From the IMG/VR virus record IMGVR_UViG_3300043434_000971, positions 1 through 23,495 of that record: 23,495 nt of DNA; one strand, given 5' to 3'. Below the pieces are notes generated by a model. The model worked only from the letters and a program-made list of their open reading frames with translations. It was not told the origin of the DNA and did not search any database. Shown in pieces: positions 1-21,530 of this stretch. Numbering within the stretch: the stretch's first letter is position 1; each line of letters opens with the position of its first letter. The translations under genes were made by a program, and so were the position numbers. The DNA comes from a virus.

Positions 1-262
1 AAACAACAGTGCTAACCAGTACTACGTTGTAGGATACAAGGGTTCTTCACCTTATGATGCTGGTCTCTTCTACTGCCCATATGTACCTCTCCAGATGGTA
101 CGTGCAGTTGGTGAGAATAGCTTCCAACCTAAGATTGGCTTTAAGACCCGTTATGGCATCGTAGCAAACCCATTTGCAGAAGGCACTAACGCAGGTCTAG
201 GTCGTCTCCAGGCAAACAGCAACCGTTACTACAGAAGAGTACGTGTTGACAACCTAATGTGA
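1..262 (+). CDS. 23: Major capsid protein gp23, C-terminal end (partial)
   Basis: The reading frame opens at base 2 and gives 86 residues ending in RVRVDNLM before TGA. The stretch with VPLQMVRAV, FQPKIGFKTRYG and NPFAEG is the conserved C-terminal part of the T4-like major capsid protein, which forms the hexamers of the prohead shell after cleavage by the gp21 protease. The start lies outside the window. Codons here are visibly richer in C (aac, ctc, tac) than in most downstream genes, as often seen for very highly expressed phage structural genes. A strong terminator follows 20 bases after the stop, so this is the last gene of the capsid operon. Family assignment is firm from residue similarity; the fold was not computed. 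Confidence 0.95.
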   Translation, partial: NNSANQYYVVGYKGSSPYDAGLFYCPYVPLQMVRAVGENSFQPKIGFKTRYGIVANPFAEGTNAGLGRLQANSNRYYRRVRVDNLM

Positions 263-18581: not shown

Positions 18582-18589
18582 TATAAATA
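18582..18589 (+). promoter_or_regulatory. Perfect late promoter upstream of the nucleotidyltransferase
   Basis: TATAAATA, exact consensus, lies in the 27-base gap, 18 bases before ATG 18608. It is the best placed late promoter of the window. Confidence 0.75.
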
Positions 18590-18607: not shown

Positions 18608-19804
18608 ATGAAGACTTTTGCTAAATTTTTTAACGAAGCAGTAGAGACCCAAGCATCTACCGAGGCAAAGAACCGTGGACTTGTTGGTAATGGGCATGGT
18701 GATTGGTATGATAAGCAGGGAAATTTTGTTGCAAAAACAGTTAAGGGGAAGTTAAAGTTTTTTGGGCAAGGCGATACCATATCTCAAGATGGAATACCTG
18801 GGGAAGAGATAAAAAAGGAACCTAAGAAACAACAAGCAACCATTGCACCAGAGAAAGAAGAGCAACCCCAGGTGAATGGAGTGGCAATCGTTGTTGGTAG
18901 ATTCAATCCGCCATCTAAAAATCATGAAGCACTTTTAAAAGTTGGAATGTCCCAAGCAAAAAGACGTGGATTTGAATATAGAATTTACCCCAGTAGGATT
19001 CAGGATTATATGACTAATCCACTAAATCCTTCTACTAAAATTGCATATATGCAGGCACTTTTTCCTGACTATGCCGAATATATTGTTGATGATGAAGAGG
19101 CAAAAACAGTTTTTAATATACTGGAATCTGTCTATGGGAGTGGATATACTGACGTAATAATTGTTGTTGGGCAAGATAGACTTGGAGAATTTCAGAGTTT
19201 AATTCATAAGGGTGATGGGCAAAACTATCAATTTAATAGTATTGAAGTTATTCCATCTGGAGTTAAAGACCCAGATAGTGAAGTGGAAACTCCAGGGTCT
19301 TCTGCATTGATGAGAGCAGCAGCAGCAGTTAATGATTATGATAAATTCATAATGGGACTTCCTTCTAGTGTAAATGAAAATGATGCTGCAGCATTATTTG
19401 ATGATGTAAAAAAATCATTGAAGGTGACGGAAGATACTGAGGTTTGGAAAATAGAACCACTTTTGGATTATGATGCTTTGAGGTGGAACTATAAGAATGA
19501 TGGATTATATGAGGTAGACACTTTAGTAGAGAATTTAAACACTGGACTTGTTGGAAAAATTATTCGCAGAGGAGCAAATTATTTAATTTGTGTAACAGAG
19601 TCTGGAGTAATGTTTAAGAGTTGGTTGAAGGATGTGAGGGAAGTATTTGAGATCGGAACGACTGAGTATTTACAGCACGCACAAGAAATGACACCAGGAC
19701 AACCAGTTCTTTCATTTACTGATATTTTAGTAAAAAGGACTATTCCCCAATTCAGACCAAAAATACTAAATACTAGTAGGAAAAAATTGTCTAGGGTAAA
19801 ATGA
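18608..19804 (+). CDS. Nucleotidyltransferase with capsid-targeting-like N-terminus
   Basis: The 398-residue protein has four parts. Residues 1-10 (MKTFAKFFNE) closely match the T4 internal-protein capsid-targeting peptide, with Glu10-Ala11 where gp21 cuts in T4. Residues about 19-55 form a GHGDWYDKQGNFVAKTVKG module seen in phage proteins. Residues 92-250 are a cytidylyl/adenylyltransferase core: VVGRFNPPSKNHEALL (95-110, the second His of HxGH kept as H106, the first replaced), VVGQDR (186-191) and GSSALMR (230-236) in place of the ISSTxxR motif. A C-terminal domain (about 300-350) contains LVENLNTGLVGKIIRRG. It overlaps the next gene by ATGA. Substrate unknown. Similar phage genes are sometimes annotated as cytidylyltransferases. 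Confidence 0.82.
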   Translation: MKTFAKFFNEAVETQASTEAKNRGLVGNGHGDWYDKQGNFVAKTVKGKLKFFGQGDTISQDGIPGEEIKKEPKKQQATIAPEKEEQPQVNGVAIVVGRFNPPSKNHEALLKVGMSQAKRRGFEYRIYPSRIQDYMTNPLNPSTKIAYMQALFPDYAEYIVDDEEAKTVFNILESVYGSGYTDVIIVVGQDRLGEFQSLIHKGDGQNYQFNSIEVIPSGVKDPDSEVETPGSSALMRAAAAVNDYDKFIMGLPSSVNENDAAALFDDVKKSLKVTEDTEVWKIEPLLDYDALRWNYKNDGLYEVDTLVENLNTGLVGKIIRRGANYLICVTESGVMFKSWLKDVREVFEIGTTEYLQHAQEMTPGQPVLSFTDILVKRTIPQFRPKILNTSRKKLSRVK

Positions 19805-21246
19805 CCTATTGGGAAAAGTATATTTCTGAAGAAATGACTGCTGCTCAAAAAAAGAAAGCAGCAGAAGGAATTTTGGACGACTTAACGGGAAAGGGAAAAG
19901 ATAAAAAAAATAAAAAGAATAAAAAAGGTGCTTCTGCTTATCAAGAATATCTCAATAAGCAGTTGGAATTTAAGAAGAAAAAATACGAAGACCAGAAAAA
20001 AAGACAACTGGAAAAGATAAAGCAAAAGGGTGAAAGTGAAACTAAATCTGAGAAGGAAAAAGCAAAAGAGGCATTGAGAAATGTCAAAATGCAGAGAATA
20101 TCCTATAAAGATGATGATTTGAGTTCTCATGCCAAAGCAATAGAAAATCTTGGATCTCTTGCTTCTGGTGTTACGAAAGCTGCTTATCATGGAGTAAAGT
20201 CACTACAAAAGAAAAAAGAGTCAGAGTCTGCAGCAAAAAAAGCAGTAAAAACGCAACCAGAAAAGAAAGAGCCAGGAAAACCAGGAAGACCAAAAAGTAA
20301 AAGTGCGGATAGAAATACTAACCCCGCAACTGAAGCACCAGAAAGAAAAATACTAGTTCCGTCAACAAAAAGACTTTTGCCAGCAAATAAAAAAATTGCA
20401 CCTTCTGGTGGAACACCATATCAAGCATCTCCTGCTCCAGATAGAGAAACTGGGATGAGACTTGGGCAAAGAGCAAGAAGAAATCCAGCACTAAAATCAG
20501 CACTCATTAAATCTAGAATGGAAGAATACTCGAATTGGAAAGAGGAATTTATTTTTGAAGTTGATGATAAGATGAGTAAAGTTGAAAAGAAAAAAGTTAT
20601 CGATATTATGAAAGGCAAAAATAATATAGAAATCAATCCAACTGTTTCTGAAGACCATAAAGAAATAGCAAGTGGAAAAAAGAAAGATGATGAGGGATAC
20701 ATGGTAAATGTTGAATTGGACCAAATGGAAAGAGCAATAAAAGCACTTCGCAAAAAGGTAAAAAAATCCGATATGCAACTTCCTGCTTGGGTGCAATCAA
20801 AAATTACTAGGGCAGCAGAATATGTTGATACTGCATCCGAGTATCTCCAAAGCGATGAAAAACTTTCAGAAGAAATTGATAAAAAAAAACTTTTATTGAT
20901 GCTTGTTTTAAAAGCAGCAGATAATGCAAAAAGAAAAAAAAATTCCCAATTAATTAATGGTATTATTGGAGAAGCAATTGATAAGTCCAAAATGAAGTGC
21001 AATAAACCAAAAGCACAAGCACATGGATCGGGAGAAACTGGGAAATCTCATGTTGTTAAGGCATGTGAAGATGGAAAGGAAAAATTGATTCGTTTTGGGC
21101 AACTTGGAGTTAAAGGTTCTCCAAAAAAAGAGGGTGAATCCGATGCATATGCAAGTCGTCGTCATAGATTTCAAACAAGACACGCAAAAAATATTGCAAG
21201 GGGAAAAATGAGTGCTGCCTACTGGGCAAATAAAGTTAAGTGGTGA
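19801..21246 (+). CDS. Lysine-rich DUF5872-like protein, possible internal head protein
   Basis: The 481-residue protein is very rich in Lys and Glu. It begins MTYWEKYISE, again ten residues ending in Glu and similar to the T4 capsid-targeting peptide. A charged helical region follows (30-95), then an AT-hook-like PGRPKSK (161-167), a conserved helical segment LPAWVQSKITRAAEYVDTA (327-345) and a C-terminal domain (about 397-481) with SHVVKACEDGKEKLIRFG and SAAYWANKVKW that matches DUF5872, a domain seen in phages and giant viruses, of unknown role. Base composition and the repeated AAA/AAG runs reflect the lysines. Translation is coupled to the nucleotidyltransferase. A DNA-bound protein packed inside the head is the likeliest idea, but only inferred. 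Confidence 0.8.
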   Translation: MTYWEKYISEEMTAAQKKKAAEGILDDLTGKGKDKKNKKNKKGASAYQEYLNKQLEFKKKKYEDQKKRQLEKIKQKGESETKSEKEKAKEALRNVKMQRISYKDDDLSSHAKAIENLGSLASGVTKAAYHGVKSLQKKKESESAAKKAVKTQPEKKEPGKPGRPKSKSADRNTNPATEAPERKILVPSTKRLLPANKKIAPSGGTPYQASPAPDRETGMRLGQRARRNPALKSALIKSRMEEYSNWKEEFIFEVDDKMSKVEKKKVIDIMKGKNNIEINPTVSEDHKEIASGKKKDDEGYMVNVELDQMERAIKALRKKVKKSDMQLPAWVQSKITRAAEYVDTASEYLQSDEKLSEEIDKKKLLLMLVLKAADNAKRKKNSQLINGIIGEAIDKSKMKCNKPKAQAHGSGETGKSHVVKACEDGKEKLIRFGQLGVKGSPKKEGESDAYASRRHRFQTRHAKNIARGKMSAAYWANKVKW

Positions 21247-21296: not shown

Positions 21297-21476
21297 ATGG
21301 ACTTTATTGTAGCTGTTGCAAAACCACTTCTTCTTAGAATTGCAACCCATCCATCAGTTAAGAATCTTGTTATTGAACTTCTTGAAAAGTATGTAAATAC
21401 CACAGATAATAGCATTGACAATATGATTCTTGCTACTGTTAAGGAATTACTTTTCAAACCACAATCTAATTCATAA
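21297..21476 (+). CDS. Small conserved protein
   Basis: The ATG at 21297 has GGAGG 5 bases upstream (21287-21291) and opens a 59-residue frame: MDFIVAVAKPLLLRIATHPS, then VKNLVIELLEKYVNTTDN and an end in LLFKPQSNS. It looks amphipathic and helical with a hydrophobic N-terminus, but it is not a clear membrane protein. It is alone between a late-type promoter and a terminator, so it is probably a late product made in large amounts. I recall similar short proteins in marine T4-like phages, without known function. Confidence 0.8.
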   Translation: MDFIVAVAKPLLLRIATHPSVKNLVIELLEKYVNTTDNSIDNMILATVKELLFKPQSNS

Positions 21477-21497: not shown

Positions 21498-21523
21498 GGG
21501 CAAAGAAACACTTTGCCCTTTTT
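21498..21523 (+). terminator. Rho-independent terminator after the 59-residue gene
   Basis: GGGCAAAG (21498-21505) pairs perfectly with CTTTGCCC (21511-21518), loop AAACA, followed by five T. It is a compact strong terminator. Confidence 0.93.
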
Positions 21524-21530
21524 ATAAATA
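21523..21530 (+). promoter_or_regulatory. Perfect late promoter fused to the terminator
   Basis: TATAAATA begins with the last T of the terminator T-tract and lies 32 bases before ATG 21563. It would drive the Ig-like virion protein and the genes after it. Confidence 0.75.

Follow-up and report, generated by a model that had tools for sequence, protein, structure and literature searches.

The window analysed here, the 23,495 nucleotides of IMG/VR virus record IMGVR_UViG_3300043434_000971, carries two adjacent genes, ORF1 and ORF2, which encode a putative nucleotidyltransferase and a lysine-rich basic protein (Table 1). The pair is preceded by mazG and one unidentified gene, and is followed by a head-protein homologue. 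As the window begins inside gp23, and as gp21, gp22 and gp23 are contiguous in its relatives, with the gp21 protease gene immediately 5′ of gp22/gp23, the window is a fragment of a T4-like cyanophage. No gp21-type prohead protease is encoded within the 23.5 kb; Peptidase_S77 (gp21) is present in seven of ten relatives' contigs, and the gp23 of relatives contains a site-like FL[YG]E sequence near the position of the T4 gp23 cut. ORF1 matched 513 phage records; the nearest annotated phages belong to the Kyanoviridae, with protein identities below 60%, and many of the relatives found on 80 IMG/VR contigs are much closer than these. A search for near-identical DNA in known phages returned none. 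A small ORF of 59 residues, under the 60-residue cut of the ORF list, lies 3′ of ORF2 at 21297-21476, and S-SM1 and S-SCSM1 have small genes resembling it in roughly this position.

Table 1. Features of the ORF1/ORF2 locus and of the window start (positions in the window; CTS, capsid-targeting sequence).
Feature	Position	Strand	Remarks
gp23 major capsid protein, C-terminus	2..262	+	ends RYYRRVRVDNLM, as in L106 and L109
T4-type late promoter TATAAATA	18582..18589	+	exact match, 26 nt before ORF1
ORF1, nucleotidyltransferase (putative), 398 aa	18608..19804	+	phrog_395 'cytidyltransferase', E=1.2e-71
CTS of ORF1, MKTFAKFFNE	18608..18637	+	predicted gp21 cut before Ala11; M1, K2, F4, F7, E10 in 54/54, A11 in 53/54
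Post-CTS module, residues 11-60 (..STEAKNRGLVGNGHGDWYDKQGNFVAKT..GKLKFFG)	18638..18787	+	HMM matches in other cyanophage proteins
Nucleotidyltransferase domain (putative), residues 89-272	18872..19423	+	VIA-align Z ~13 to NMNAT/PPAT; GRFNPPSKNH (97-106), SSALMR (231-236)
ORF1 C-terminal domain (..GLVGKIIRRGANYLICVTESGVMFKSWLKD..)	19472..19657	+	conserved in A1
ORF2, Lys-rich basic protein, 481 aa	19801..21246	+	pI 9.87, 18.7% Lys
CTS of ORF2, MTYWEKYISE	19801..19830	+	predicted gp21 cut before Glu11; aromatic 4 in 47/48, E10 in 41/48
ORF2 C-terminal domain, phrog_7595 type (..AAYWANKVKW)	20983..21243	+	phrog_7595, E=9e-26

The late promoter that the first-pass annotation placed ahead of the gene pair is borne out by an exact TATAAATA element, the placement of which is kept in relatives. 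The raw count of this element is uninformative, with four seen in the window against 3.3 expected, and positional conservation was used instead. Among 46 distinct ORF1 upstream sequences, 20 contain TATAAATA, always from -26 or -27, against an expectation of about 0.015 per sequence, and most of the remainder carry a near variant, such as [AG]ATAAATA, at the same spot. Within 60 nt, ORF2 lacks a separate TATAAATA-type site, and its ATG shares the sequence ATGA with the ORF1 stop codon, a 4-nt overlap found in most relatives as well; together, these features suggest translational coupling. A further well-placed TATAAATA is found at 21523-21530, before the head-protein homologue at ~21563.

Both genes open with ten residues ending in glutamate (MKTFAKFFNE/A and MTYWEKYISE/E, the slash marking the predicted cut), and the coordinates and N-termini first reported for them proved accurate. 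As in the CTS peptides of T4, hydrophobic or aromatic residues occupy positions 4 and 7 of both, a hydrophobic residue occupies position 8, glutamate stands at the cut, and the peptide is N-terminal and falls within 10-19 residues. Targeting of T4 IPIII is determined mainly by residues 4 and 7, and its processing by residues 8 and 10 (PMC9026906). Comparison of homologous N-termini, which had been set beforehand as a test of the packaging proposal, shows the key residues of ORF1 to be invariant among 54 distinct relatives, with column 8 occupied by Ile, Phe, Val or Leu and columns 3, 5, 6 and 9 varying, such that the conserved and variable positions coincide with the determinants of IPIII. In the relatives of ORF2, the key CTS residues are kept while the body diverges and the C-terminal domains are exchangeable: position 4 is Trp or Phe in 47 of 48 N-termini, and the strict motif is present in 43 of 54 relatives. 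The deviating ORF2 starts (MNFFSEEE.., MKKGIFEAK and MTSWDYNLYE) count against a CTS reading.

The frequency of such N-termini was assessed with a loose pattern, M..[FYWILVM]..[FYWILVM][ILVMFAY].E, fixed beforehand from T4 IPII, IPIII and Alt. At internal positions of cyanophage proteins, this pattern occurs at a rate of 0.28% and its aromatic version at 0.05%. Three of the 31 genes in the window begin with the loose pattern, namely ORF1, ORF2 and UvsX/RecA, and the aromatic version is confined to ORF1 and ORF2, where about 0.02 would be expected (~1e-5 for an adjacent pair). UvsX/RecA was rejected as a false positive, its start being conserved in other phages and the protein being absent from the virion lists compared. 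In the neighbourhoods of the relatives, 56 of approximately 566 distinct ORFs start with a CTS-like sequence, and all of these are ORF1, ORF2 or members of a third family, phrog_1742 (~105 aa, MK.F.QF.SE/S.NISGDFNGN.YI). Members of this third family, which is absent from the published virion lists compared, include L037:7779-8084, an ORF on L081 from 10426, S-SZBM1_191 and S-SCSM1_30.

The enzymatic assignment of ORF1 comes from fold comparison, PDB chain sequences searched with a profile of ORF1 having yielded no genuine match. In the AlphaFold2 model (mean pLDDT 71, with the core at ~91-270 mostly above 75), ORF1 is predicted to be a nucleotidyltransferase of the NMNAT/PPAT fold. Because NadD, NadM and CoaD tie in this comparison, no substrate is named, and a role in NAD metabolism is the leading guess. 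An SSxxMR-type motif is present in most relatives, and the first histidine of HxGH is replaced by serine (SKNH or SKLH) in 53 of 54; the motif lies at 18896-18925 in the window. This SKNH sets ORF1 apart from the NMNAT/cytidylyltransferase known from cyanophage virions, HxGH being intact in the homologues from S-CREM2 and S-SZBM1. Pfam gave nothing convincing for either ORF1 or ORF2 of the window, and the earlier description of ORF2 as DUF5872-like was not confirmed. In place of the phrog_7595-type domain, the ORF2 relatives on L029, L037, L052, L076 and L081 carry DUF6321 (PF19846) at the C-terminus. Domains of the phrog_7595 type were also found in SIO1-type roseophages.

Not all homologues of ORF1 possess the N-terminal region. 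The enzyme of P-HM2 and S-RIM32 is short (183 and 187 aa, respectively), starts at the catalytic core and has neither tag nor module, and the homologues in jumbo phages are likewise core-only. Sequence resembling the C-terminal domain of ORF1 forms a separate gene beside the core-only enzyme in P-HM2 (L120:3071-4387) and S-RIM32 (L121:3049-3330), and that of P-HM2 has a CTS-like start, MKSLSDFTKKSKVAEA.

The segment that follows the CTS in ORF1 recurs in other cyanophage proteins. An HMM of this module matched the kinase gp14 of S-CREM2 in two copies (9e-16) and the Cas9-like virion protein gp12 of the same phage (1e-9), and the module is also found in the S-H34 kinase, its 977-residue neighbour and S-CRM01_128; furthermore, ACG-2014f_184 matches residues 2-70 of ORF1, CTS included (BLAST, 8e-10). 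Both gp14 and gp12 thus resemble ORF1 in combining a CTS-like peptide with the module, but they are other enzymes, and the module is doubled in gp14. In gp12 (L082:7704-10313, minus strand; no Pfam domain), the peptide is internal, LRFASFMAE/A at residues 17-26, and was spotted by eye outside the fixed pattern. In S-CREM2, S-CRM01 and S-SZBM1, the ORF1 homologue begins with a CTS-like peptide but lacks the module, and since the homologues of S-CREM2 and S-SZBM1 were detected in virions, the module is dispensable for presence there. A match to half of the module at residues 347-364 of the S-CREM2 major capsid protein (E=6e-5) is probably coincidental and was disregarded.

Homologues of ORF1 have been detected in the purified virions of four phages: T4-GC190 of S-SM1 (PMC3037559), ORF91 of S-SCSM1 (PMC9602691), S-SZBM1_140 (PMC9146016) and gp154 of S-CREM2 (PMC10665884). 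These begin MKKFSAFLNE/A, MKSFLQFLKE/A, MRFRQFIIE/A (with its glutamate at position 9) and MKNFSSFLTE/A, respectively, and thus have in common the start F..F[LI].E/A. Of the 173 CDS of S-CREM2 that were examined, six carry the strict motif; five of them were detected in virions, compared with 44 of 173 overall (Fisher p=0.004), an association that is suggestive only, as it comes from one genome and gp12 was recognised outside the fixed pattern. The five are the SAM hydrolase gp6, gp13, the APH-like kinase gp14, gp136 and gp154, and the sixth is RecA. The two best CTS-like proteins of S-SZBM1, _191 and _192, were not detected in virions. S-SCSM1 adds little statistically, because a convincing CTS is found only on ORF91 and ORF30, of which ORF91, but not ORF30, is annotated as belonging to the virion. 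No homologue of ORF2 appears in the published virion mass spectrometry lists compared, and by BLAST the virion-detected neighbours S-SZBM1_139, S-SCSM1_92 and S-CREM2 155 and 156 are not homologous to ORF2.

The first-pass annotation proposed that both proteins are packed in the head, and that the enzyme could modify a host molecule as infection begins, as Alt does in T4. For ORF1, packing is well supported, the motif, its conservation, the module and the operon having been computed here and the presence of homologues in virions, all with CTS-like starts, coming from the data of others. For ORF2, the motif, the basic composition and the operon position suggest the same, and the protein would thus be a candidate for packaging. 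Taken together, ORF1 and ORF2 are likely to be CTS-bearing internal head proteins, with greater confidence for ORF1 than for ORF2. The two genes are probably co-transcribed from the late promoter, and their products would be synthesised while heads are being assembled, with Phe/Trp4 and Phe/Tyr7 bringing them into the prohead core. The gp21 protease would then cut off the ten-residue peptide behind Glu10, so that mature ORF1 begins at Ala11 and mature ORF2 at Glu11, and the mature proteins would sit among the packaged DNA until they enter the host. ORF2 may act as a basic DNA-binding internal protein, like IPIII, and ORF1 as a delivered NMNAT/PPAT-type nucleotidyltransferase, working early on a nucleotide cofactor or another host target.

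The N-terminus of ORF1 could instead be part of the fold, or an amphipathic helix serving membrane contact or dimerisation, with no packing role and with virion detection reflecting carry-over of an abundant enzyme. The model does place a helix over residues 4-22, albeit with low confidence at its start, the RecA start is similarly amphipathic, and the authors of the virion proteomes left open the carry-over of abundant proteins in CsCl. Yet the same pattern is found on the unrelated ORF2, on phrog_1742 and on the SAM hydrolase and kinase of S-CREM2, core-only homologues lack any such peptide, the pattern of constant and variable residues agrees with the T4 determinants, and detection was repeated in four phages, all of which render this explanation quite improbable. 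It is somewhat easier to envisage, though still unlikely, that ORF1 is packed but is targeted mostly by the module at residues 11-60, and that ORF2 serves as scaffold or core and is consumed in head maturation rather than delivered. Conservation is indeed higher in the module than across the full CTS (mean entropy 0.26 at residues 11-27 versus 0.69 at residues 1-10), the module recurs in other virion proteins, and ORF2 is Lys-rich and variable in length. However, the homologues from S-CREM2, S-CRM01 and S-SZBM1 are CTS-like without the module, two of them being virion-detected, and ORF2 is basic, in contrast to the acidic core protein gp67 of T4.

Two statements made at the outset about the T4 proteins needed correction. 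MKTYQEFIAE, given as common to the internal proteins and Alt, belongs to IPII and IPIII only, IPI starting MKTFKEFTSTTTPVSTITE/A and Alt starting MELITELFDE, and Alt is not cut after Glu10 but is processed at ITE-6 and LTE-619 (PMC5694885). The two proteins share with IPII and IPIII the ten-residue peptide with its aromatic residues at 4 and 7, hydrophobic residue at 8 and Glu10, and the T4-type late promoter; ORF1 also shares Ala11, and ORF2 the basic Lys-rich body (pI 9.87 versus 9.65 for IPIII). No sequence relation to IPII and IPIII was seen outside the CTS, and further differences are the much greater size of ORF2, the cyanobacterial host and the cut, which is a predicted one. ORF1 resembles Alt, a head-carried ADP-ribosyltransferase, as a putatively head-delivered enzyme with an N-terminal propeptide and a gp21-type site, but is an enzyme of a different kind, with a site unlike those of Alt. 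A further counterpart is the homologous virion enzyme of S-SM1, S-SCSM1, S-SZBM1 and S-CREM2, for which the respective papers propose no packing signal; in the first three phages, the gene also lies between mazG and nrdA, as ORF1 does.

The CTS itself is known. In the literature searched, which covered papers outside subscription, no report of a CTS in cyanophages was found, nor of a CTS on cyanophage enzyme cargo or of the shared module. The peptide is found here on otherwise unrelated proteins, namely ORF1, ORF2, phrog_1742 and gp6, gp13, gp14 and gp136 of S-CREM2, and, because relatives of ORF1 are found in virus particles, the tag is probably the means by which cyanophages bring preformed enzymes into the host. 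Whether this extends to a modular system of head delivery, in which a gp21-cleavable CTS, often followed by a ~45-residue GHGxWxD module, is fused to exchangeable effectors such as a nucleotidyltransferase, a protein kinase and a Cas9-like nuclease, is an evenly balanced question; if so, a set of enzymes would be injected ahead of all phage gene expression. Cyanophage proteomics has repeatedly met enzymes in virions and left cargo or contamination undecided. A CTS signal that marks such enzymes would provide a mechanism, predict their exact mature N-termini and allow cargo to be read from the genome of any T4-like cyanophage, uncultured ones included. It would also offer a first clue to DUF6321 and phrog_7595, both of them domains of candidate head proteins, and the CTS is a possible tag for laboratory protein delivery into marine cyanobacteria.

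In S-SCSM1, most genes in the stretch of the mazG-to-primase segment that holds ORFs 89-93, 95 and 97 are annotated as virion proteins, the majority without a CTS, and the segment in its entirety may form a cluster of head-cargo genes.
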